Positions 8,800 through 45,438 are shown, counted from the stretch's first letter. The stretch is 64,000 bases of DNA from Gyrodactylus bullatarudis (GCA_012064415.1 SSNU01000319.1:62001-126000), one strand, 5' to 3'. Notes: generated from the sequence alone by a model not told the origin. Numbers and translations are program-made.

Positions 8800-10065
8800 T
8801 TAAAGTTCATCAAGAGGAATTTCATCGTCAACAGGTTGTTTAGCGTCTTTTCCGTCCCACTTTTCGACGTTCATAAGAGTTGGCATATTTTTCAAATCAA
8901 ATAAGGCGATGGAACGACTTCCAAGAGAAACGTCTCGTAAAAATTCATGTAATCCATCATCACTGAATGAACCCCTAAGAGGAGCATACTTTTGTTTTTT
9001 CAAATTAATCACAGCCATTGCTGGGTAACCAAAACCACCAATATTAAGAGCTTCTTCTAGTTGTTGTTGCTGCATAGAAGAGGTCCAAAGATATGCCCAA
9101 TGGTTGGCTTTGTATTTTTCACTGACTTTTTCAAGCATTTTAATATAGTTATTTCTACATTTAGACTGACAGTCAAGAAGATCAGGTAGAACTGAAACGA
9201 TGCATAGTTGCATGTCTTTGCAAGTTTCATCAAATACTTTTTGGCTAGTTAATTCAATTGGTTTTGGTGCAGGTTTGTTAGAAGCAGCTAGGTTTTTCAT
9301 AAAAGTGACGATATCACTAGCAGTTCTGCCTCCCTCATAAGGCTCGGGTTCTCTTTTGCCAGGAGAGAAGTATACGACAGTAGGATAGCCTTGGACATTA
9401 TATTTAGCCGCCAGATTTTGGTGAACTGTGGCATCAACAGCTCCGAGCTTGACTAGATTACCCAATTGCTTTGCAGCGGATTCATATTCAGGCTTAAGAC
9501 GTTTACAGTGTCCGCACCATGGGGCGAAAAATTCGACCATCCAAGTTTCCCCATTGAATACGAGTTTATCAAAATTGGATTCTGTTAGTTCAATGACTTT
9601 ACCCTCAGAGCCACTACTATTATCATTAGAGTTACTACTGGAATCCTGTTTTGGATTTAATCGTTTTCTCGCTAATTTAGCCATCTTATCCATAACGTGG
9701 TTGACGATTGCTTCAGCAGTTCTTCCGCTTTCGTATTTTACTGGCTGCATTTTGTTTGAACCAAAAATTTTGATAGTCGGGAAACCTTGGATACCATATT
9801 CAGAGCATAAACTTTTTTCATTATCACAATCTATAACGCCAACTTTCACAAGCCCCTTTAGAGCAGTAGCTGCTTTTTTCATTTCGGGAGCTAACTGCTT
9901 GCAGTGTCCACACCAAGGAGCATAAAATTCGACGATCCAAATACCATCATCACCAATAACTTTGTTTTTAAAGTTGCTTGAGTTTAGTACAACAACATCA
10001 TCAGAGCTTTCATAAAGGGCTCGAACTAATGAAATTGCAGAAAGTAATGCTAGTATCAGACGCAT
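8800..10065 (-). CDS. PDIA6: Protein disulfide isomerase A6 (P5)
   Basis: An intronless 421-residue ER thiol oxidoreductase. A signal peptide (about residues 1-17, ending near SLVRALYESS) precedes two thioredoxin domains, each with the active site WCGHCK (about residues 51-56 and 182-187). A redox-inactive b-type domain follows and the acidic C-terminus ends in PLDEL, a KDEL-like retrieval signal. The domain order a-a-b and length match PDIA6, which has its two active domains side by side at the N-terminus. It catalyses disulfide formation and rearrangement in the ER lumen and attenuates unfolded-protein sensors in animals. Its start lies 159 bp from that of the UXS gene on the other strand, so the two probably share a promoter. 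Confidence 0.95.
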   Translation of the reverse strand: MRLILALLSAISLVRALYESSDDVVVLNSSNFKNKVIGDDGIWIVEFYAPWCGHCKQLAPEMKKAATALKGLVKVGVIDCDNEKSLCSEYGIQGFPTIKIFGSNKMQPVKYESGRTAEAIVNHVMDKMAKLARKRLNPKQDSSSNSNDNSSGSEGKVIELTESNFDKLVFNGETWMVEFFAPWCGHCKRLKPEYESAAKQLGNLVKLGAVDATVHQNLAAKYNVQGYPTVVYFSPGKREPEPYEGGRTASDIVTFMKNLAASNKPAPKPIELTSQKVFDETCKDMQLCIVSVLPDLLDCQSKCRNNYIKMLEKVSEKYKANHWAYLWTSSMQQQQLEEALNIGGFGYPAMAVINLKKQKYAPLRGSFSDDGLHEFLRDVSLGSRSIALFDLKNMPTLMNVEKWDGKDAKQPVDDEIPLDEL

Positions 10066-18340: not shown

Positions 18341-19377
18341 TCAAAGCTTCTCGATAATAAGATTTTCTAGATCTTCCGTGTCTTTGATAAATCGGTCAAT
18401 GCCATCTTTCAAGAGTTTAGTTGCACATTCATTCTCATTTTGCATCCAAAGATATGCTTCATAGATAAGAGGGTCTTTGAACTCGGGTTCGCTATCATCT
18501 ACTTCAGGTTTTAAGTTCACTCCAGGAACAATATTCATCTGTGATAGTTCCTCCAAAAGACTTGGAGAAATGGTCAAAAGATCACAACCAGTCAATGAGA
18601 GGATTTGTCCAACAGTTCTGAAGGAAGCTCCCATAATTTCAGTTCTGTAACCATTGTTCTTGATATAGCTGTAGAATTCCTTAACACATTCAACGCCAAT
18701 GTCATAACCCTCTTCTTCATCTTCTGGTTTATTCTTTGCGAACCAGTCTGTGACCCTACCCACAAATGGAGATACTAGTGTTGCACCTGCTTCAACTGCA
18801 ATGCGAATTTGTGCAAATCCAAAAATAAGGGTCATGTTGCAGTGAATTCCATGTTCAGATTCGAGAATCTTACAGGCCTGGGCTCCTTCCCAGGTAGTTG
18901 CAAGTTTGATTAAAATTCTCTCTTTAGATATTCCCGCTTCTTCAAACATTCCGACGATTTTCCTAGCCTTTTCAACTTGTTTTTTTGTATCGAATGAAAG
19001 TCTAGCATCAATTTCCACAGACACCCTTCCAGGAACTATTTTTAAGATTTCTGATCCAAAAAGGAAAAGAATCCTATCCAGGGATTGTTCAGCCTTCTCC
19101 GTTAAATTTCTAGCATAAAAATATTGATTAAATATAATCAAATGTACCCATTGAATTTCTGCCCGTAAGCAATTGCTTCATCCAAATAGGGTTTATACTC
19201 TGGATCCTTAATAGCGGCAAAGATTAGAGTTGGGTTTGTAGTTGAATCGGTGGGCTGATATTTGGCAATTTCTATATAGTAAAAAAAGGTTATTGATCAA
19301 AAATCAAAGATACTCTTGAAGAAAGCTGTGTCTGTGACAATTTTCGTGGACTTTGACAAGTGATCTAGTGTGTTCAT
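18341..19377 (-). CDS. TALDO1: Transaldolase, copy 1
   Basis: Exons 19314-19377, 19148-19271 and 18341-19109 join through introns of 42 and 38 nt to give 318 residues, the normal class-III transaldolase length. Landmarks are TTNPTLIFAAIKDPEY, the beta-strand EIDARLSFDT, the Schiff-base lysine in RILIKLATTWEG, SPFVGRVTDWF and VMGASFR-like MGASFRTVGQ. It transfers a dihydroxyacetone unit between sugar phosphates in the non-oxidative pentose phosphate pathway. An open frame extending 32 nt above the exon-3 acceptor is intronic; the spliced version matches family spacing exactly. It lies head-to-tail with copy 2. Confidence 0.95.
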
Positions 19378-19850: not shown

Positions 19851-20855
19851 TCAGGATAAATCATCAAGGATCATCTTTTCAAGAATCCGTGCATCTTTGC
19901 CAAATCTTCTGATTCCATCGGACAAAAGATCGGTTGCCATTTTATCTTCATTTATCATCCAGAGATACTCTGACTGATTTAGAGATTTTTCCTTGGGCTT
20001 AGGCTGGACATTTTCAGCTATTAACTTGATTTCTGGGAAAAATTTCATTCCCATAATTGAGTCGAGTATTGAGGGGGATACAGTGAGTAGATCGCATCCA
20101 GTGAGAGCCAAAACTTGTTCAGTACTTCTAAAAGAAGCCCCCATCACCTGTGTTTTGGAGCCTTGAGCTTTAACATAATTGAAAATTTTAGTAACAAGTG
20201 CAACTCCATGATCAACTGATCCGTGGTCTGGTCCGTTAATTTTAAACCAGTCACTAACTCTTCCGACAAATGGCGAAATCAAGGTAGCATTCGCATCCAA
20301 AGCAACGCGAACTTGAGCAAGACTGAAAATCAGAGTTAGATTGCAATGTATTCCGTGTTCAGTTTCAAGAATTTTAGCAGCTTGTCCTCCTTCCCAAGTG
20401 GCTGCTATCTTGATCAGAATTCTTTCTTTCGAAATTCCTTCTTTTTCAAATATTGATATTATTTTGAGAGCTTTAGCTACGGTTTTTTCTGTATCAAAAG
20501 ATAATCTAGCATCCACCTCGACAGAAACTCTACCGGGAACAATTTTGAGTATTTCTACTCCAAACAGATACAGAACTCTATCCATGGCTATTTCGAGTCT
20601 TTCATCCTTTGAACTAACGTATTATTTAAAACAATTTACCATTTAATTTCTTTAGCGTATGACGTAGCCTCTTTCAAGAAGGCAGCATACTCTGGATCTT
20701 TAACTGCAGCGAGAATTAGAGAAGGATTTGTGGTTGAGTCACAAGGCTCGTATTTCTTAATAGCTTTAATCAATTATTTTATAAACATTACAATAAAAGA
20801 GTCCAGTATCGGTGACGATCTTTGTAACTCTTGAAAGATGATCCAAGGTATTCAT
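19851..20855 (-). CDS. TALDO1: Transaldolase, copy 2
   Basis: Exons 20792-20855, 20640-20763 and 19851-20613 give 316 residues. The first two exons have exactly the same lengths (64 and 124 nt) and phases as in copy 1, proving tandem duplication. The catalytic lysine is kept in RILIKIAATWEG, together with SPFVGRVSDWF and MGASFRSTEQ, so the enzyme should be active. Its introns are only 28 nt (20764-20791) and 26 nt (20614-20639). Without splicing the second, the frame meets TAA at once. Spliced, the junction region has the same residue spacing as animal transaldolases. The two proteins have diverged clearly, so the duplication is not recent. Confidence 0.94.
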
Positions 20856-27815: not shown

Positions 27816-28212
27816 ATTAGTGAATTAAAAATTATTTTATTCATTACATAAAAGCTAAATATTTTAGTTAAATTAAAATGAGGTTAATTCTGAATTAAAG
27901 CATACTCCTTCTTGCTTAATTAATTTAAGGTGATTTCGTAAGATTTTAAATGAGTAATATCGTTCCGTTGCTTACTATTTTGATAATATTGAAGCCTTAT
28001 AAGGAATAATAAATAAGAATTAAAGTGGTTTTATCCACTATAAACTGTACATGTTGTTTTGTGCAGGTTGTGTGGGACGTTTTGGCGGCGGCACATAACT
28101 ATAAAAATCATAATTAACATGTCTACTATCAAGTGACAAGATTAATTTAAAAAATAAATGTTCTCAAACAAACTTACTCTCTGTAAGGACTTGAGATTTC
28201 AAGGAATTAGAA
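27816..28212. other. Convergent 3' flanks
   Basis: Separates the ends of uL15m (+) and the micro-exon gene (-). AT-rich, with no coding signal. Confidence 0.5.
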
Positions 28213-30273
28213 TTAAAAAAATACAAAACCCATCACTAACTTTCTGTGTAAAATCTGAATGCTTTCATCAGCATCTAAATTTTCATAATTGTATATGGTT
28301 TAATTATAATTTTACATTGTAGTGTACTTACCCAAATCCTTGGGTATGTCCAATAAGTAATACGTCATCCAATTCCGGTTGGAAACTCGAAAGAAGGTCT
28401 TGTCATTCTTTGAATTGACATTTTCTGAGACCGAAACTTCAATCTTTTGATGACTCAAGCAAGATAAAACATTATTGACATCCGTCTTGACACTACAGAT
28501 TAAATAATTTTATAACAATTAACTAATCGTCCAGAAGATGCCACCTACTCAAATTTTATTTCCCCGTCAAACTGAGCAGAAAGAAGTCAAATTTAGATTT
28601 TTTAAACCTTACAAAATCCAGCTTACTTCAATTGGATCCCGCTAATAAAAATATCAATTTCAAAATTAAATATAATCTATTATCTCATGCCTAACTCACG
28701 AAAACAGTCCAAGTCTAAGCCATTATAAAAAAATAACCAATTTTTTACATATTCCAGAGAAATCAATTCAACTCACAAAGGAATAGAACTTCATGCCTTA
28801 GAATGTGGCAATAAATTTATTTGTTGACAACATTTGACAAGATTTAAACTCACCATTACTCTATAGTCATTTTGAAAGTAAAATTATTTTAGAAAAAAAT
28901 TGCATCCCCTTGAACGTACTGTCTCAATCTTTACTCGTAAAAAGGAGTGTTTAACAAAGGAAGCTGTTCAAATCTAAATGACATACGTAGACTTTAGTTT
29001 CCAACTATAGGGAAATGTGAAAATTCAAAACCTAGTTACGTACTACACATTTACAAAAATGACCCAAACTCAAAGGAACGGTCTAAGAAGACAATCACTG
29101 TAACCTGTGTACACTTCCAATTGTCTTTTTCATCCATCAACTTCCAGATGGATGGAAAGATTCTGGGAAATTTCTGTCAGTGATTGGTTGAATGAAAAAA
29201 AGAATAGTTTGAGACCATTCTTAGAACTTGAGGACTAAAGTGTAGACATTGCCTCGGATAACTTACTGTCTTTTTATCGACCTATGAAAATTTTAGAAAG
29301 ATTAAAGGTCTACTTTTTTCCTGCATAATACAACAAACTTTGGTCTCAATCTCATTCTGTATAGATTGAAAATGAATTACCAGAACTATTTAAAAAAAGT
29401 TTTTGAGAACTTGCATTAAGGTACTTGGCCTAGAGATCGAATTTTAATGATCGAGTCACTATGGTTAATTCTTCATTAACAAACTTTTGTTCCCGTTATT
29501 GTCTGAAAAGTATATATATATATTAATATTTTAGAATTGTACTTTGTCAAAGTGCCTCACGATGAATGTATCGAAAATGATCCTAATATTTCTCTAAAAA
29601 ACCAATCAATCTGCAGTGGGATAATTCTCAGAGTTACTCACCAAGTTTTCTTCACTCCAACTGGATTGGATGAAAAGTTATTCTCAAAAGAGTAATGCGA
29701 AAAAAGGCTTACTTTGACTTGAAAAACCAACTCATGGAACTATAGAAGGGAGAATTTAGAGAAATAAACTTTCCATCAGCCAAACAGACCAGCTCACTTG
29801 CAGTGGTATTCCACTCTATTTAAAAAAACAAGACGCATTTTACTCATGATACTCTCTATGAGCTCTGTGGAATGGCCAGATGATTCTGACACTAGGAGGT
29901 CTTTTTATTATTATACAGAATTCTAATGATTATGTAACAAAAAAATAATATTTTGCATACTTGTAGGCGAAGCTTCAGTTAGGTTATGTGAATTCCACTC
30001 ACAAGGTTTGATTTATTGCCCTAACATCCAATAATCAAAATGATGACTAGTGATCACTCTAGAAAGGTAGCTCACGGTTTTTCTGGTAGAATAATGGCTG
30101 GTTTCCTAAATGTTGAAAATGATATCAAGGTAAGAGAGTAGATTTTAGTAACTATACTCACTCTGGCTCAGGTGGTTCCGGCTCGTATTTACTTTAAGAA
30201 ATTTTATAAACTCCATGATATGTGACTTGAATTCAATATGAACACTTTGACTCACAATTCCTCAACGAATGGA
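28213..30273 (-). CDS. Micro-exon gene, second part (downstream exons)
   Basis: Supported exons, 5' to 3': 30256-30273, 30162-30191, 30076-30105, 30003-30020, 29961-29972, 29844-29864, 29798-29815, 29713-29730, 29642-29660 and 29561-29593. After a partly resolved middle come 28987-29004, 28854-28860 (7 nt), 28777-28796, 28700-28714, 28627-28641, 28549-28571, 28332-28492 and 28213-28274 with the stop. The first nine stay open only when read in phase 2, giving PFVEEFKYEPEPPEPEKPAI and later NWFFKSNWSEENL, which supports the threading. Likely middle exons are 29312-29335 and 29267-29281, but phases between 29560 and 29005 are not settled. The first exon begins only 48 nt after the stop of the upstream part, leaving no room for a promoter and signal exon. 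Hence this is probably the continuation of the same gene. Function unknown. Confidence 0.6.
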
Positions 30274-30320
30274 CTGAAATAAAGTTATTTGTAAATCCTT
30301 CGATCGGACGGAATAATGAG

Positions 30321-33300
30321 TTAAAAGACAAACTTCTTTTTGAATAAAAGGAAGGCTTCCCTGAGACTTTTAACCTTCTCGTTATCAAATTGGAAGTAAT
30401 AATTGCAAATGTTCCCAGAACTGTTCATGTAGTTGAGGACAAGATCATAGCTATCTGGATCAGTCTCATGACTCTCAGATTTGATGACAATGCCGCCTTT
30501 CCTTTGAATGTATTGCTTGAATATGTCAACATCCTTGATTGAACGTCTAAATGAGAACAAAATAATAATAGTTTTAGATACAAAATATTTTATTTATTAT
30601 CTCTAGGAAAATTACGCAGATATCTTTCCAGCCTGTATAAAATATTTGTAAATAATCCTCCTTTGGCTGAGGGTTTCTTCTAACTTACATAACCTGGCAG
30701 TTTTTTGATTTTCCAAATCTTTAAAAAAAAATTGAGCATACATGAGCACATTATAGGTCTGACAAGAATACTCACAAATGTAAACTCGTGCTCATCTGAG
30801 AAATTTTGGTTTTTTCAAATTAAAAATTTATAATCCTATCAATAGATGGTCAAAACTTTTACACTAGAAACATTAAAAAAAAGAATCAAAATCTTATCCT
30901 GACTTCTCGTTTTGTTCTGTCATTTATAAGTAGACCTTTATTTACATTCATCAATTTTATTTTTGTGTCTGGATGCTCTTATCCATACTATGTCGAATAA
31001 ATAGCAAATGGGATCATTGGAAAATTGCTTACTCTTTTCAAAAGTGAACTGATTGAAAATCAGATGTCTTCAACAGCTCATTTGATCTAATCTTTAGCTC
31101 ACTCGACATGTGTGTAAATACTGTAGGTTTATATTGTATACATTTTAAAATTCTAACACTTTTCTTAACTCACAGGCGACTCATGAGTCTAAAGTAATAT
31201 GATAATAATATTTTAATTCAGTAGAATGCTCTTCAGTTGAAGAAAAACACACTTCAATAATGTCATCTCTATTCTAAAATGGATGAATTTTCATGAAAAC
31301 CTTGAATGCTGATTACATAAAAGAATCACCTACTTGACAAAAGTATTCCTAGAATTGAATGGTGACAGGTGAAATAAGAAATATATGGTAATTGATAAGG
31401 GCTTACCTTGAATTTCAACATTGACTGAGTGAATAAATTCAAATAACACACCAAAAAGGGTATAAAGATCAACTAACCAGGAAATAATCAACCAAAACTC
31501 CAATGAATTTCTTTAAATTAGAGTTTCTTGATAGACTTTAATACAGACTGGTTCGAATCTCTCGCTTACTGCTCTGTGGATATTATAACTGGGGAAAAAT
31601 GTTTGAAATGAAAAAAAATTATAAAGTGGTCATTGTTCTCACTCTGAGACAATTTCAATGACGAGACCTCCACTAATAAAGAGATTAAACAAGTTAAAAT
31701 AACCCATCAAGCGTCCCATCAGGAACGAATCGAATACCTGAGAATGTCAGTGCTAAACGGGAGGGATTTGAATGAAAAAAGAAATCGGTCATCTCTCATG
31801 CTCACATACCAGGTCATAATGGGCCTGAAGATGTATTTGGTCACTTTTCAAAGGCCTTTCAAACAGAGATTTTTACTTACAATTTCGATAGAATTTGATA
31901 GGTAAGATTTGCAGCTTAAGAGGATAGAAAGATGAAAATGAGCTAATTTTTTCGCAGGACAAAAAATTTATCTCACAGATGATTGGCTCGAATTTCAGAT
32001 AGATGAACTCCTTCTTGTCGATCAGGAGGATGTCTTCATTCTCGTTAAAGTCCCTCTGGACCTTTTCAATGCTCTCCTTTATCTTGTTCTTATTCAGGGC
32101 ATGGATAAATTCCAAGAGGGACATGGTCTCTTTACTATGAAACGGTTACTCCTTAAGAAAGGAGGGAATTTTTTCTTGATTCCTTACTACTCAATGGTTC
32201 CAGTCTGTAGGAATTAAAATTTTCATTTGGAAAGTTAAAGGCTTATTTAATTTCTCTTACATTAGTTGGATTCCGTTTCACTATCCAGACCTAAAAATTC
32301 TCGGATATCATAAAAAATTACGATAGTATCGATAAATTATCAATGTAAATCGCAGCTAAAGGTATGGAAAGTCTTCATTAATAAGAGAAAAAGTTGAATT
32401 TTCAATAATTTAATTTGATTAGTTGATGGGGTGGAGAACCACATATTTATATCCCCAAAAATCTGTATTTTGGAACATGACAAGTTAATTGCTCAAGATC
32501 TGGATAAACCATTCAAGACAAAACAAGACCTGAACTAATCAGAATAGTTTTGGATAAAACTGAAATTTTACCCATTACTGAAAAGTCTAGAAGTTTCTAC
32601 TTTAATCTAGATTATAATTTTAATTTTAATAAACTCACAAAGTTGTAGTCTACTTCTAAAAATAATAACAAAATATTCAATAAACTTTACTTGAGTTCGA
32701 TTTTTACCCTTGACAAATAAATTTTGATAATGGATGGATAGTTTCTTTTTGAGGGTTGATTTACTTCATCATCGTCGAGGTATTTTGTGAACTTCATACG
32801 AACAACATAAGAATCCTGTTGGTTTGATTTTAATGATTAGAAAATGATGATTATCTGTTATCATCTCTTACTCGGTCTTCCCATTTTTCCTATTTTTTCG
32901 GATTAATTAAACGTTATGTAAACTCTAGCATAATCTCAGAGAATTCTTCATATTATTCAAAAATGAAGATAGTTCTTACACTTTTCTCATAATCACTCTA
33001 AGAGGTTGGTTGGTGAGGAAGGGGTTGAAAAGAAGCGTTAAATATGAAATTAGCTTACTTTCAAAAAATCATACTAATCGTATTTAAGGAGAATATAAAA
33101 CCAAATACTGTTCATGTAAGATGTAAAGGCTTACTTGAAATTTAAAGGATTCCTTTTATTTTGACGAGCATTAAAAATTAGCATTAACTCTGGTTACTTG
33201 AATGACTTACAACAAATGACTTGAAGACATAGGTTGCTTTCTTCTAAATAGTCAAAGTTTTAACAAACAGTGTTGAAAATATGTAAAATAGCGTACGGAA

Positions 33301-33851
33301 TAAATATCAGAGTAGCTGAGAATCAAAATATCAGAATACTAGACACTGGAATTATCACAAGATTCAGAATAGTATTTGTGCCATTCCATAGAATTATAAA
33401 ACATATATCTCCCATTCTGTTTTGATAATGACTAAATAGCTTGGAAGAAAGTAAAAGTATTGCAAATAGCAAAGATGAGCGTATTGAAATTATCAATCGA
33501 AAGATTAAAAATCAAATCAGAGAGAAATACATATTAATCAGAATTTAAAACAATTTGATGACAAAAGCAGTTGCTTCTTTGAAAGAAACTCGAAGCAGAG
33601 GTGAAGTAATTTTTATTAATTAGTGAAATTATTTATTATATTGAAAAATCAATGAAATCGAAAAACTAATTTGAAAGTATAGCTTACAAATGTAACACGT
33701 GCAATGAAAAGAAGGAGCAACTAGTAGGCTTGAGATTGTGAAAAAGACTCACTATCAGCGTTGAAAGGTTGAGACTAGCTAACTAGGGAATGACACAAAT
33801 ATTGTCCAGAAATTAAGAAATTACAAACTTTGTTATAAGAGTAACGTCCAT
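30321..33851 (-). CDS. Micro-exon gene, first part (26 threaded exons, 344 residues)
   Basis: Exons (5' to 3'): 33825-33851, 33753-33782, 33688-33720, 33211-33243, 33135-33152, 33059-33073, 32980-32997, 32872-32889, 32765-32815, 32691-32708, 32261-32290, 32188-32204, 31881-32134, 31810-31843, 31738-31752, 31643-31672, 31570-31588, 31407-31424, 31334-31348, 31174-31188, 31103-31120, 31033-31048, 30776-30795, 30689-30718, 30616-30632, 30321-30546. Each has GT and AG borders, every phase matches the next, and lengths sum to 1035 nt. 23 of 26 exons are 34 nt or shorter. The first eleven are all multiples of three and in phase 0. Exons 1-3 encode a hydrophobic signal or anchor (STLI then LLLLFIARVTF), so the product is secreted or membrane-bound. 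I recognise no known domain. The architecture is that of schistosome micro-exon genes (MEGs), but no sequence link is claimed. Extra exons in the 430-nt intron after exon 3 are possible. Confidence 0.75.
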
Positions 33852-38640: not shown

Positions 38641-41600
38641 TCATTCAATTTCTTCATCATAAATTCCTTCATTTAGGGTTTTATTGACACCGAGACGGAG
38701 TTTAGTCATTACTTCGGAGAGGACCACACTCTGTTCACAGGTTGAGTCTTCTGAAGAAAAGATAACAATTTAGGTACTATTTTAATCAATGAGAGGTTTT
38801 TCTTTTAATTAAAGTCTCAAGAAATAAATTTGACATACCTCTTGTGCCAAGACTCTCGATGGAAAGTATGGAAGAGGAATTTAGAGAAATATTATCATTC
38901 TTAATACGTTCTGGTTGGTTGTTTAATTCATTGAGTGCATCGGTGAGGAAGCCAGCAACCGATGAATTTCGATCATTCTCCTCATAATAAAATTCATCTT
39001 TGTTCTCAAGCTGGAAAGAAGAAAGTTTTCACAAGCCAAGTCATAAGAAAACTGAGGAGACTCACTGAGGAGACTGATATTAATTCCGCTGTATTTTCTG
39101 TCTTGGTAGTGGGCAGTTTCCCAGTAGAAATGAGATGTTCTATTCTCTCTCGGCCCTTTTCAGCATAGAAGAAGCTATCCTGATGAAATCTTGAATCTCC
39201 GAACCTTGGTGCAAGTAGGGACAAAAGACCAAGAAAACTCGGACGCTGACTCGGTAGAAAAGCAAAACAATGCGTCATTATTGCTGCGCTATATGAAAAA
39301 CAAGAAATTAGATTATTATAAACTTGATACGTTTAAGAATATCTTCTCTCACATCAAAGGGGGACAATTAAGGGGATATCCATTGGTTAGTAAGTGATTG
39401 CCACGAAGAATGTATTTGACAATTTCTTCATGCGTCATTGACCTAAAGGGTAAACTAGCCATTGTGACAATTTCCCATAAAACTACTCCGTACGACCTAG
39501 AGAAATAAAATCATCAAATCAGATAAATATTTTAAACTATTCCAAGAGGTCTCACCAAATATCAGACTGAGATGTAAAGTAAGCAGACTGTATAGACTCT
39601 GGTGCCATCCAGCGGATGGGAACTCTGCATTTACCCTCTTTCTTGTAAAAGTTGTTCTTGTAAATATCTCGGCAGAGACCAAAATCTCCAATTTTCACAA
39701 CTCTATCTCCATTAACAAGACAATTGCGAGCAGCCAAGTCTCTGTGGACATATTTATTAGCTGATAAGTAGGCCATGCCGTCAGCGATTTGTGTTGCCCA
39801 GAGATAGGCTTGAGCTGGGGAGACAATGCCAATACCAGAATTTCCCAAGCTCTTCAGATAATTTGCAAGGTCTCCTTCAACCATGAGTTCCATCACAACC
39901 ATGGGACCGTACGTTCTCGGGTGAACTGTCACTGTTTTATTTGCAATTTTCAAATCTAACAGTTTTTCTTTTAATTCAATGTCACTAGAAAATTAACTTG
40001 TGAATCAGAAAATTGAACATGATTTTATTTTTTATGAAAACTGTATAAATTAGATTTGTCAATTTTTGGTTCACTCAACTTCCTACCTATTTATTATAAA
40101 TTCTCAGATTTGAATTTCGATTATTCCCCAAGTATATACTTTAATTTGATTGGTCCAACCAGAATAAAGTTTCATAAGCTTCCCTAAATAGCGATTGGTT
40201 AATGATTACTAGAGCACTGAATTTTCTTTTTTTCTAGAAAATCAGTCTATTTAGTCCCTTTCTGATTGGTCAACATCTTTGCAAGCGTTGAATACGATTT
40301 TATAGGTCAATAAATTTTGTATACTTAATAGAGTAGTCCTACTCATGTACCTATTATTTTCTGGTTCGCCGAATATCTGTTCAATATTTAAAGCTATCTA
40401 TATATTTAGTTCCTAAAGGAATCAATATCAACCGCAATATCTCAAAGAAGCCTATTTAAATATGACTAATATGGAACAGGAGATAACTTGATAACTTACT
40501 TGACGTCATTAATTTGGTCAAGATTGCAAACCTTTTTGTGGAACAAATTCTTCCAGTTAATTCTCTTATGAGAGTTGAAGATCTCTTTCCATCGATTAAT
40601 CGTTGGCTGTTGATCCATAGAAGATGTTTTCTGGTTGGTATTTTCAGTAATCACGCCAATTAATCTGACCAGATGCGCACTCTGGAACTGTTTCATGTAG
40701 CATGCTTCATTAATGAAATCCCGACGATCGAATATCGAAGCAGTTTGATTTAGAGTCTGAAAAAAATTTTATCTTTTACTTTCACATATCGTAAAAGATA
40801 GACTGCTCAATTTATTGACTGGAAAAGAGGGATTAGAGAAATTAAACAGTCATTAAAGTTTGTAATCCCAAACGTCTTGGGAAATTTTTGAATATTTTGA
40901 GAAGGGATTATTTCAGATTAATAACAACTTGCTTTTATCGCAACTGGAAGATCAATGCAATCTTGAAATATCTCCTTGATTGGAGTTGTAATCTCAGTCA
41001 GGATACCCTGGAAGACCATGCCGAAGCTGCCTTTTCCGAGGATCATCGACCAATCAACATTCAAGTGTTCCGATTTTATTTCCCATTCATCAACATCGTA
41101 AAAGTACCAATATTCTGGATTGTTTGCACGTGTATAATTTTCTGCAATCATTTTCTTATGACGAAAATAAGCTCTTATCGCCAGAATGGCGATGAGAATT
41201 ATCACAAGAGTGAATACTGATAAGATTATCGATAGAGTTTTCCGGGCTAGAGTGTTTGATGAATATTTCATTTGGGTATTTTATTTCAAGGAATAAAGAC
41301 TCACTAATCCCGTACGTGTTGTAGAACAAATCAAATTCAATCTCATAATAGGGAACACTAAACGTGTAAGCATCTGACCATTTGTCTGAGTCGATGGCGT
41401 TTGATACGGACATGATTTGAAATTTATAACCGCCATGAGGGAGAACTCTCTCGTGATACAAGCCTAACGTCCTATCATGGTCATCAGAATCTTTGCTCAA
41501 ATAATCATCCAAGGCATTCCTTAGACAAAAGGTTGAGTTGTACTCATTATTTTTGGCAAGTAAGAGGTTTAAATGCTCCAGATTCCTGTTGGACTCATAC

Positions 41601-44600
41601 TTGGTCAGACATTTTGTCATCCAAGATTCATTCAGATCTTCATTCAATCGCTTATATTTTAGTAAATACCTCATTAGGAATCCATTGGGTTGAACTGGGT
41701 CCTTCCAGAATAACCAAACTTCACCTTTGTCTACGCAGACTTTTATATCATCAATATTAATTATGTTTGCATCGGCTTTAAAAAGAGATTAGATTTTTAA
41801 AAATTCTTCTTACGATTGGGAAGTGTTCTTTGATTATTTGCTATTCGAATGCTGCAGAAATTTTCTTCGTACACTCTCCAGGCCTCGGTGTCTGGCGTCT
41901 GAGCTTCCTGGGATGACAAAATTTCCCAAGGCATTTGTTTGTTTGCTAGCCTCTGTTTATTTTAAAAATTCTCTTGAAAAATCTAACATTTTAGGATAGA
42001 AACAATGTAGTAGTCTTGTTTAGAGTGATTTCGAAATTAAGATGATCTCCATTCAAGAGGGGATAAGGGCTAGTTATGACTATAAATAAATTCAAGATAA
42101 TAAAGCTAACGAAGAAGATATCTAAGGACTAGTATAGATCATAAAAACACCTCGAAACACTATAATTGGCAAGAATCTTTCTATTAGCTCACATGACAAT
42201 ACTGGATTTCAACAATGTACTCTGTAAAATGAATCAGCTGGTGGATTTCATGAGTGAAGTACATAAGAGTATGTCTTAGAGTACTCTTATCAATAGAGAT
42301 CTCAGTCGACTTGTATTCTAATAGGGAAATTGGCAATACTTGAAGAGTTACTACGTCTGTATCATCATTGGCATTGGATAAGATTGTATTATCATTACCT
42401 AAATTTCAAGAGCATTAAGAAATAAGGGATTACTTTCAAGAGCCCTAATTAGTTTTAATGGCTCTTCGTTTTCATCAGCTAACCAGATGCTGACATCACT
42501 GGGCCATTTAGAGATGGAAATCTTCTTCTTTCGATATTGACCATTTGAGTCATGGCTAAAAGTTAATTCGTAATCTGGATTACTTGAGGAAATCGGTCAA
42601 CTTTGAGCAGGAACAATGGTGTGAGATCAATTCACAACTTGCTTTATCTCCAGAGTAACATGGCGAGAAATGTCTAAGCCGTTGATCTTGACCTAAGAAG
42701 AAATTTTTTTAGTGAAAAACCATGAAAACTATAGATGGTCATACACTTACTTTCACAGGTCTCCTCACGATCTGATCTCTTTTGTTGGGGAATTCTTCTG
42801 ATCCACATTAAAAAGACAGGCTCCGCATATCCAGGTTCGTAGGACTTGGGCCTGTTGAGAGGGATTCCGGTGAATATTTCTCTTAGTTCTGGATGATACC
42901 AATTTAGCTTCAGAGAGGAATAGTGCGCTGATTCAATGATCAAATTCTCAGCAGGATCTGGATCTAAAAGAGAATCGTTAGAGATTCTTTAGGAATTATA
43001 ATTTTGACATTTTAACTGACTTATTTTCAGGGTGGTAAAGTCGAATAGATTAGTCATGACTTGATACTTTTCAAAGAGTCGAGTGAACTTGATGTAAACA
43101 AAGCCTAGATAGGTTGTATCTGGCAAGAGGTTGTCCACCTTGGCTCCGCACATTGTATAATTATAATTTTCATGCAGATATTCCAGACTCTGTTCACAAA
43201 TGACAGTCTTTTTCTCTTTACTCTGAGAGAAAGTGAAGAATGACTTGATGGCATTCTTTTTCCTGAATGAATGAAAAAGGAACGATAGAATTAGCGGAAT
43301 GTACGAGATGTGTAATTGAAAAGGCTCACAAAATTTCCAGATAGACTAGACCTATTGACACTTGGACATCAAGAGGATTTATAACAAGGGAAACGTTTCT
43401 TTTTTCAAAGTGTTTTCGCTTTATTATGTCGACAGAGGATTGCATATTCCACATTATGTAAACAGAATTCCATGTAAAATTTTTGACAAACACAGGAAAC
43501 GTTTTTGATTCGCCTATAACGAATGAAGGAATTTATATCGAGGCTAATCGAAATTTATATACCGAGATTAGATTTATGGAGATACTTGTTGTATCTGTTG
43601 GTTTTTTATTCGATTTTTCATTGAGCTTTTGAGTAGAACTACTTTTCAAACTACGCTTGATAGAATTTTACAATACTATTCTAAATAGGCATCAATTTCA
43701 TGATTTCAAAGAAATTTATAATCGAGGTTGAAATGAGGCAATTATTAATTATAATTACTCACACATGTAATCATTGCCATTTTTTTGAAACAGTTCAATT
43801 TCCTTTGAGGTCAACTTTCGATTGGTTAGAACAAATTTTCCAGTTCTAAAGATATTCAAAATTTCCTTATAACACAGGGATGGATTGAAGCCAATCTTGA
43901 CCCCACCAAGGACTTGAATTTTGATCTCTGTTTTATCTGGAAGGGTTTCTTCGTCAAAAAGTTTTATTAGATTTTCATTGCTAAATATGAGGATACTATT
44001 TGTCCTGTTTGAATAAAGAAGCCAATGATAATCTCCTTTATAGTAGTTGAAGAATTTTACACTCACGAGAATACACTTCCAATGCTGGATATGCGACGAA
44101 GAAAGTTGAGAGATGATATGGAGGACGAAAGTGTAATTTTCACCTCATGCCAGATTTCCCGTAAAAAATGAAAGGCATCATCCAGTACTTGCTCGTTAAC
44201 AGAATCGGAATTGATGTTCAATTTAAGAGACTTTATTCTACGACAATTTCTGAGTAACTTCAAGTTTTGATATTCAGTAATTGTAACCTCTTTATCTTGA
44301 CAGTCTATAAAAGAGAGATAAAATATATTTGTCGTTGAGTTACCAATTGTGAATTCATCGCCTTTCTCGACAAATACACAGAATCCTTGATTGTTTGGTG
44401 CATACTTGAAGTCACATTCAGGTAAGCACTTATCAGCCATAATAACCATGGATACATTGAGACATTCTTGATGAGTAAGGCAGGTCTTGTAAAGTGTAGC
44501 ATACGTTCCTCTAGGACATTCATTAACACATGTTCGTTCTCTGGAAAAATATTTACATCCAGCACAAAAGGAGGGATCTTCTGAATTTTTCTCTGTTTCA

Positions 44601-45438
44601 GAATAACAGCCTCCGAGACAACTTTTGTGACAGCAAATATTTGGGTCTAGAAGGGAGCAGGATAACTTTTTATCTGTACAATTTTTCGAGCAGACTGAAA
44701 TAAAATTTTAAAAATATGATAATTTTATTTACTAGTCTGACATAACTCGGGAGTCCAACAGCTACACTTGTGCTTGAAGGGATCATCACTAGTTATTTTA
44801 AAGTGGAGATATTGACAACGCTGATCGCAGGATTTGGAACAATAAAAGTTTACATTTTCAATATATGGTTTTGATTTTGTGATTGCCTTCCAATCAATAC
44901 GATCTAAATTGCATAAATTTACATTGTTGGAAATGTAAACATTCCCATTGTCAATAATTTTCAGTGATTTCAATCCAACATATGAAATATTTGTGTATAA
45001 AATAACGAGGGAGCTGCCCGTAAACAAAGTTTGACCCCGAATGATAACCAAATTTGGTAAAAGATCATTAAGGGATGAAACTAAAGAACTCTTTCCGGTA
45101 ATAGCGAGAAATCCAGTAATTTCCTTCATGAAATTTAATGGATAGATCTTGACTATCTCTTTTAGATCTATTAATAAATTCCCTTCAATTACTGTACAGT
45201 TGCTCAAAATTTCCAATTCGCTTGAACTTCTTACAATAATTCCATCACATCCTAAAAATATTATCAAAAAACTTTTACTTTTCTCATTTTTCAGCCATTT
45301 AAGTTTAGAAAATTCAGCAGAAGACTTAATGTAGTTGTTGATATCATATAAATCTACATCATTATCAAGCTTGTTTAAGATTTCTGTATTGTTAATATAT
45401 TGAATCATGATAAATATAACAAAGAATTTTTTAAACAT
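38641..45438 (-). CDS. Insulin-receptor-type tyrosine kinase
   Basis: Order of domains from the start at 45438: signal peptide; L1 (44731-45438); furin-like Cys-rich domain (about 44450-44700; CCHKSCLGGC, CAGCKYF, CVNECPRGTY); L2 (about 43750-44450); FnIII region (about 41300-43700); TM (LSIILSVFTLVIILIAILAI, about 41180-41240). The juxtamembrane segment has NPEYW, the NPxY motif that docks IRS/Shc adaptors. Kinase: GKGSFGMVF, VAIK, HRDLAARN, GDFGLCRD and PIRWMAPES, all present, so it should be active. Kinase exons include 40933-41256, 40500-40756, 39557-39984 and 39353-39496, and the tail ends at 38641. The activation loop reads RDIYKNNFYKKEGK. About 70 residues are inserted between strands beta-4 and beta-5 (around 40500-40650). 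Exon borders in the FnIII region were not all fixed. Confidence 0.92.

Follow-up and report, generated by a model that had tools for sequence, protein, structure and literature searches.

Introduction

Micro-exon genes (MEGs) are known mainly from schistosomes and tapeworms, and most of them are thought to make variable secreted proteins. According to the sections of the literature cited here, about 80% of the coding region of schistosome MEGs lies in symmetric exons of 6–36 bp (PMC5825161), their introns measure 0.1–5 kb (PMC10526429), and their products are secreted or membrane-anchored almost without exception (PMC5825161); one of them, MEG-8.2, lyses host cells (PMC12998952). Gene finders have difficulty with MEGs (PMC7653826), so further ones may have been overlooked. 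Here we describe a minus-strand gene, composed mainly of exons of 7–34 nt, in which about 40 tiny exons are arranged around three larger, similar ones. It lies in a window of 64,000 nucleotides, the whole stretch of DNA analysed, which corresponds to bases 62001–126000 of the 226-kb contig C311 in an assembly of 77.3 Mb and 471 contigs, probably from a monogenean flatworm. All positions refer to the window.

In the passage concerned, PMC4398949 cites Hahn et al. 2014 and Tsai et al. 2013 for proposed gains that include micro-exon gene organisation, and Hahn et al. 2014 is the Gyrodactylus salaris genome according to PMC4413821. Because of the former citation, the locus cannot be claimed as the first of its kind in Monogenea.

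Results

The gene finder combined a three-periodic coding model with donor and acceptor matrices and was repeatedly self-trained on contig C311; in the version that was kept, the splice matrices were built only from introns with a well-scoring coding exon on either side. Two exon-length priors were used, an ordinary and a micro prior, and exons labelled 'micro prior only' in Table 1 are absent from the ordinary-prior model. Gains are given in nats for the best in-frame exon path relative to a single intron, and shuffles preserve dinucleotides.

The fullest model runs from 33851 down to 28038 and comprises 47 exons and 508 codons, with every intron bordered by GT and AG. Forty-two of the exons measure at most 34 nt and 27 at most 20 nt, and symmetry is found in 32 of the 44 exons under 70 nt. 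A first-pass annotation of the window had described consecutive GT/AG-bordered blocks with matching phases on the minus strand, and these were recovered on re-reading. For its in-frame chain from 33851 to 30321, the present model gives 29 exons and 336 codons instead of the 26 and 344 it had counted. As it proposed, most exons of the model measure 7–34 nt, but three larger exons with a predicted fold are also part of the predicted protein.

With the ordinary prior the finder likewise returns a minus-strand gene, starting at 32124, with 27 exons, 25 of them within 32124–28332; the last two, which reached into a neighbouring gene, were left out. In its first version the finder gave 25 exons and extended as far as 27326. 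The ordinary-prior core joins exons of, for instance, 18, 15, 21, 15 and 30 nt by introns mostly of 52–69 nt. In the full model, 36 of the 46 introns measure 50–70 nt, compared with 45 of 116 training introns, and this range still held 16 of the 24 introns predicted for the micro-exon gene when the finder favoured no intron length. The training introns of contig C311 peak at 50–65 nt; an apparent second group at 30–40 nt (19 of 116) may be real or a training artefact.

Summed over the micro-exons, the coding score amounts to 46.3 in frame versus −114.7 and −58.8 in the other frames, the frames being those chosen by the model. Nine consecutive internal exons under 70 nt occur here. Among 88 predicted genes in 276 kb the next best runs are four, three and three, and the micro-exon gene is the only one of the 88 with a run of more than four.

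The two blocks between the larger exons stand far above chance. In block 31880–30632 (end of exon 14 to exon 28) 13 micro-exons were found with a gain of 39.5 nats, while 200 shuffles averaged −1.6 and never exceeded 7.1; block 30333–28571 (core 2 to exon 43) also holds 13 micro-exons, with a gain of 40.9 versus a maximum of 11.0 in 200 shuffles. When 500 real contig segments were searched per block, they contained at most 5 and 6 exons under 70 nt, versus 13 and 13. The same total gain was reached by 43 and 63 of the 500 segments, respectively, which we put down to genuine larger exons within them. On the opposite strand the best gains were 1.1, 0.1 and 0.4. The last link, to the terminal exon, has a gain of 1.4, which 2 of 200 shuffles matched. 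What computation demonstrates is the chain of exons, with its phases and with its excess over chance; as far as can be told from DNA, the micro-exon gene is real.

The three larger exons have a common setting. A phase 0-to-2 exon (17, 17 and 23 nt, respectively) leads into each of these core exons, which measure 158, 213 and 161 nt. After cores 1 and 3, which end in phase 1, comes a 34-nt exon (phase 1 to 2), a piece that is fused in core 2. Phase-0, mostly symmetric micro-exons precede each module, and phase-2 micro-exons follow modules 1 and 2 until a 19-nt exon leads back to phase 0. AlphaFold2, run on single sequences, predicts a helix-strand-strand-strand-helix fold for core 2 (30548–30324, pLDDT 73.7) and helix-strand-strand-strand for core 3 without the 34-nt exon (28491–28333, pLDDT 63.6). 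An ungapped comparison of modules 1 and 3 (D1 and D3) in exon register gave a score of 24 (shuffle p = 0.0003), and an exon triple of 33, 18 and 15 nt recurs ahead of modules 1 and 2 (shuffle p = 0.016). It is likely, if not proven, that the three larger exons are copies of one module and share common descent. This pattern is absent from the first-pass annotation.

At the 3' side, the gene had been traced to 28213, with the protein ending at 30321. The micro-exons past 30321 were found again, and the gene appears to continue to a TAG at 28038. One gene to this stop codon scores 88.6, versus 57.1 for two genes, and a second gene carries a fixed cost that accounts for 11 of the 31 nats between them. 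Thus 30321 does not appear to be the end of the gene. The finder was made to stop at 28038 because this yields an open, in-phase terminal exon, and because the free run entered the neighbouring gene.

At the 5' side, the eleven blocks reported previously (27, 30, 33, 33, 18, 15, 18, 18, 51, 18 and 30 nt, all phase 0) were re-read at 33851–32261; the eleventh was seen by a directed look alone and was not picked by the gene finder. The chain from 33688 gains 4.4 up to the 17-nt exon (equalled by 1 of 300 shuffles) and 9.1 up to the core exon (0 of 300), and the chain from 33211 gains 5.0 (2 of 300). For exons 1–3, which are separated by introns of 42 and 32 nt, the gain is 0.8 (10 of 300). Seven micro-exons make up the 5' block, and 500 real segments hold at most five; 149 of these segments reach its gain, and 2 its number of 50–70-nt introns. 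Several start codons compete, with scores of 89.4 (32797), 88.6 (32124) and 83.2 (33851), and others lie in between. A hydrophobic stretch of the model, LASLNLSTLILLLLFIARV, falls within exons 1–3, the least supported ones, and the most hydrophobic 19 consecutive residues of the whole model lie in exons 2–3. The putative hydrophobic leader, MDVTLITKFLASLNLSTLILLLLFIARVTF, is thus attractive but unproven. The label 'secreted or membrane protein' in the first-pass annotation would rest on these three weakest exons and has to be regarded as unsupported or open.

Table 1. Exons of the fullest model of the micro-exon gene, with alternatives and possible additions
Feature	Position (strand)	Description	Support
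Exon 1	33825..33851 (-)	27 nt, phase 0, candidate start MDVTLITKF	low confidence
Exon 2	33753..33782 (-)	30 nt, phase 0, LASLNLSTLI	low confidence; introns of 42 and 32 nt beside it
Exon 3	33688..33720 (-)	33 nt, phase 0, LLLLFIARVTF, hydrophobic leader ends	low confidence
Exon 4	33211..33243 (-)	33 nt, phase 0, KKATYVFKSFV	5' block, moderate
Exon 5	33135..33152 (-)	18 nt, phase 0, ESFKFQ	5' block, moderate
Exon 6	33059..33073 (-)	15 nt, phase 0, YDFLK	5' block, moderate
Exon 7	32980..32997 (-)	18 nt, phase 0, SDYEKS	5' block, moderate
Exon 8	32872..32889 (-)	18 nt, phase 0, EKWEDR	5' block, moderate
Exon 9	32765..32815 (-)	51 nt, phase 0	5' block, moderate; coding score 5.3
Exon 10	32691..32708 (-)	18 nt, phase 0, GKNRTQ	5' block, moderate
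Exon 11	32261..32290 (-)	30 nt, phase 0, VWIVKRNPTN	probably the eleventh block of the first-pass annotation; open block, then 56-nt intron
Exon 12	32188..32204 (-)	17 nt, phase 0 to 2, TGTIEY, enters module 1	acceptor 6.1; phases as exons 28 and 43
Exon 13	31977..32134 (-)	158 nt, phase 2 to 1, module 1 core	coding score 13.6–13.7; acceptor −1.45
Exon 13, alternative starts	32129, or ATG at 32124 (-)		
Exon 14	31881..31914 (-)	34 nt, phase 1 to 2, module 1 last piece	ordinary and micro priors
Exon 15	31810..31824 (-)	15 nt, phase 2	ordinary prior; shuffle-tested block
Exon 16	31738..31752 (-)	15 nt, phase 2	ordinary prior; shuffle-tested block
Exon 17	31643..31672 (-)	30 nt, phase 2	ordinary prior; shuffle-tested block
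Exon 18	31570..31588 (-)	19 nt, phase 2 to 0	ordinary prior; shuffle-tested block
Exon 19	31478..31510 (-)	33 nt, phase 0, KFIGVLVDYFL	ordinary prior; shuffle-tested block
Exon 20	31407..31424 (-)	18 nt, phase 0, SMLKFK	ordinary prior; shuffle-tested block
Exon 21	31334..31348 (-)	15 nt, phase 0, EYFCQ	ordinary prior; shuffle-tested block
Exon 22	31253..31273 (-)	21 nt, phase 0	ordinary prior; shuffle-tested block
Exon 23	31174..31188 (-)	15 nt, phase 0	ordinary prior; shuffle-tested block
Exon 24	31103..31120 (-)	18 nt, phase 0	micro prior only; coding score −2.4
Exon 25	31033..31048 (-)	16 nt, phase 0 to 1	micro prior only
Exon 26	30776..30795 (-)	20 nt, phase 1 to 0	micro prior only
Exon 27	30689..30718 (-)	30 nt, phase 0	ordinary prior; shuffle-tested block
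Exon 28	30616..30632 (-)	17 nt, phase 0 to 2, AGKISA, enters module 2	ordinary prior
Exon 29	30334..30546 (-)	213 nt, phase 2, module 2	coding score 14.2
Exon 30	30256..30273 (-)	18 nt, phase 2	ordinary prior; shuffle-tested block
Exon 31	30162..30191 (-)	30 nt, phase 2, Pro/Glu-rich	ordinary prior; shuffle-tested block; coding score 8.2
Exon 32	30076..30105 (-)	30 nt, phase 2, Pro-rich	ordinary prior; shuffle-tested block
Exon 33	30003..30020 (-)	18 nt, phase 2	micro prior only
Exon 34	29798..29815 (-)	18 nt, phase 2	ordinary prior; shuffle-tested block
Exon 35	29713..29739 (-)	27 nt, phase 2	ordinary prior; shuffle-tested block
Exon 36	29642..29660 (-)	19 nt, phase 2 to 0	ordinary prior; shuffle-tested block
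Exon 37	29339..29356 (-)	18 nt, phase 0	ordinary prior; shuffle-tested block
Exon 38	29267..29281 (-)	15 nt, phase 0	ordinary prior; shuffle-tested block
Exon 39	28854..28860 (-)	7 nt, phase 0 to 1, probably the 7-nt exon of the first-pass annotation	micro prior only
Exon 40	28777..28796 (-)	20 nt, phase 1 to 0	micro prior only
Exon 41	28700..28714 (-)	15 nt, phase 0	micro prior only
Exon 42	28627..28641 (-)	15 nt, phase 0	ordinary prior; shuffle-tested block
Exon 43	28549..28571 (-)	23 nt, phase 0 to 2, FDGEIKF, enters module 3	ordinary prior
Exon 44	28332..28492 (-)	161 nt, phase 2 to 1, module 3 core	coding score 11.7
Exon 45	28241..28274 (-)	34 nt, phase 1 to 2, module 3 last piece	micro prior; length and phases as exon 14
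Exon 46	28178..28180 (-)	3 nt, phase 2; or 12-nt version from 28189	low confidence
Terminal exon	28038..28098 (-)	61 nt, Pro-rich tail, TAG stop	end imposed, not freely chosen
Possible extra exon	29485..29502 (-)	18 nt, phase 0, in model gap	acceptor + donor 9.0
Possible extra exon	29105..29173 (-)	69 nt, phase 0, KFPRIFPSIWKLMDEKDNWKCTQ	sites 2.4 and 2.1; not chosen by the finder

No Pfam family was found for the predicted protein, in line with the lack of a domain match noted before, and the PDB yielded no sequence match. In the protein search 0 of 5698 candidates reached an E value of 10 or below, in a search that needs shared words and for a class of genes that diverge strongly. An earlier model version of 472 residues served as query in the whole-protein searches. 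A second copy was not found in the genome. The element order of the module 2 model (D2, H-E-E-E-H) and of the D3 exon (H-E-E-E) is that of the double-stranded-RNA-binding domain (dsRBD). The Pfam dsRBD profile gave no match for the three module strings, and a fold search with core 2 returned weak, mixed matches, with dsRBDs among them and unrelated folds as high or higher.

The mitochondrial contig C13 (14,926 bp) carries COX1 with in-frame TGA codons. AAA codons of COX1 fall on Asn of a solved COX1 structure at all three aligned places, and a fourth AAA lies outside the alignment. A mitochondrial code with AAA for Asn is common to flatworms, echinoderms and others, and the COX1 protein is one that, by eye, we take to be like that of parasitic flatworms. 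The assembly size of 77.3 Mb and the contig GC content of 32% lie inside the ranges of about 67–91 Mb and 31–39% GC given for three published Gyrodactylus genomes in Table 1 of PMC12677651, which is compatible, not diagnostic.

Elsewhere in the window, a PDIA6 gene with a single open frame lies at 8800–10065 (minus strand). Its product shares 37–54% identity with 120 listed relatives, among which there is no close species, and the named PDIA6 matches among those listed are from nematodes, arthropods, fish, and single molluscs and bryozoans, with no flatworm; this speaks against the gyrodactylid-like assignment of the genome. A ribosomal L15-family gene and a WD40 gene lie next to the micro-exon gene, at 25.5–27.8 kb. 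Two adjoining transaldolase genes (18341–19141 and 19851–20585, minus strand) both match Pfam PF00923. At 39552–45438 (minus strand), pieces of a Receptor L domain and of a tyrosine kinase lie on the same strand and probably represent an insulin-receptor-like kinase, a name given by eye.

Discussion

We interpret the locus, with a probability of about 0.6, as one minus-strand, protein-coding micro-exon gene of a gyrodactylid-like flatworm, in which three folded modules are joined by micro-exon linkers. The gene would begin near 33851, or at the latest with the core exon at 32134, and end at 28038. Phase-0 micro-exons would lead in, a 0-to-2 exon would enter the module and phase-2 micro-exons would exit it (modules 1 and 2), whereupon a 19-nt exon would reset the phase. 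Most linker exons keep to a single phase and have lengths divisible by three, so these could be skipped without breaking the frame, and splicing may vary the linkers while the modules stay intact. By analogy with schistosome MEGs, the product may be exported and act at the host surface. Expression, skipping, secretion and host contact are all inferred.

Several observations weigh against this interpretation. Six introns of the full model, of 187, 237, 285, 400, 406 and 444 nt, are long, so exons are probably missing or wrong there. Exon 13 has a poor acceptor at 32134 (−1.45), and other acceptors are favoured by the gene finder. The position of the 5' end is uncertain and support for the leader exons is low; at the other end the finder, left free, ran past 28038 into the neighbour. 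Furthermore, the contig used for training itself contains the micro-exon gene. As to the modules, the confidence of the structure models is modest, and gapped comparisons of whole modules gave p = 0.23 (D1–D2), 0.02 (D1–D3) and 0.19 (D2–D3). The linker blocks are not alike in local alignment (p 0.48–0.88) and at best borderline in global alignment (p 0.05–0.55).

The same locus might be an ordinary, fast-evolving intracellular gene, for example with several dsRBD-like domains, that gained many introns and always includes its micro-exons, with neither secretion nor variants. We consider this rather improbable. The element order of the modules would fit such a domain, but no dsRBD profile match was obtained and unrelated folds score equally or higher; moreover, intron gain alone would not be expected to favour a constant phase or multiples of three, whereas 32 of the 44 exons under 70 nt are symmetric. 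It is unlikely that at least two neighbouring genes have been merged, one terminating with the TAA at 30321 and a second one beyond it, possibly preceded by a separate short gene upstream of 32134. The donor at 30334 (GTTTGT) has a middling score of 2.8, and the frame meets a stop at 30321; also, scores are nearly equal with and without part of the 5' block (89.4 versus 88.6). Splitting at 30321, however, lowers the sum from 88.6 to 57.1, with just 10.1 for the best downstream gene (start 29838), and the same phase pattern runs through both halves.

It would also be conceivable that only the three larger exons are real and that the micro-exons form a chance chain of GT/AG borders, given that both dinucleotides occur often in AT-rich DNA and that the coding signal of an individual micro-exon is low. 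This explanation would fit the 5' block best. Yet shuffles, real segments and the opposite strand give no such chains, so that we deem it highly improbable; for 31914–28549 it is already disfavoured.

If the locus is indeed one micro-exon gene with three modules, a more far-reaching scheme may be considered, which we regard as possible though doubtful. It would represent a splicing-programmed modular protein with three stable modules, whose linkers are separate, skippable cassettes of phase-0 and phase-2 micro-exons, so that the linkers on the two sides of a module could be varied in length and chemistry independently of one another. Such a gene would be a monogenean type of micro-exon gene that arose by duplication of a whole multi-exon module, possibly with an origin separate from that of schistosome MEGs. 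Beyond the first-pass annotation, the reach to 28038, the modular build and the predominance of 50–70-nt introns are new. In a compact, probably monogenean genome with mostly such short introns, the question arises how the spliceosome recognises dozens of 7–34-nt exons in a row, and the case would help test whether the micro-exon design dates back to the ancestor of parasitic flatworms.

The following comparisons refer to the cited parts of the respective papers. Like tapeworm MEGs as defined by Olson et al. 2020 (PMC7653826), the gene fits all three numerical conditions of that operational rule, which bears out its first-pass assignment as a micro-exon gene. Where at least seven exons are asked for, it has 25 under both priors and 47 in the full model; where at least half of the exons should be under 70 nt and divisible by three, 17 of the 25 well-supported exons and 32 of all 47 are. 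For the third condition, the longest run is 11 in the full model, and the ordinary-prior model contains a run of 33, 18, 15, 21, 15 and 30 nt. Hymenolepis microstoma has 52 MEGs, ten of them in one tandem family (PMC7653826), whereas one locus and no second copy were found here.

With schistosome MEGs (PMC5825161, PMC10526429) the gene shares the many tiny symmetric exons, the absence of a known domain and of a detected homologue, the presumed setting in a parasitic flatworm and possibly an N-terminal hydrophobic leader. The schistosome genes have 10–20 exons and encode proteins of up to 189 residues, compared with 47 exons and 508 codons here, and they differ from a gene that has three larger exons with a predicted fold and separate phase-0 and phase-2 blocks. 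Of the schistosome design proposed at first, two features of the strict description are missing: symmetric exons of 6–36 nt account for 654 of 1527 nt of coding sequence (42.8%) instead of roughly 80%, and with 36 of 46 introns at 50–70 nt, the strict intron range of 0.1–5 kb is missed as well. The closest structural parallel to the repeat is offered by MEG-26 (PMC5825161), where an internal duplication likewise appears as a repeated pattern of exon lengths. MEG-26 proteins have an amphipathic helix, whereas the repeat here is a predicted helix-strand-strand-strand-helix module with micro-exon linkers. Aphid bicycle genes (PMC9168663) also combine many small, single-phase internal exons with strong sequence divergence, but these insect genes are nearly all phase 2 and encode CYC motifs; the likeness noted here is one of architecture. 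Taken together, the rule of Olson et al. 2020 classes the gene as a micro-exon gene, and the stricter schistosome description makes it an atypical one.

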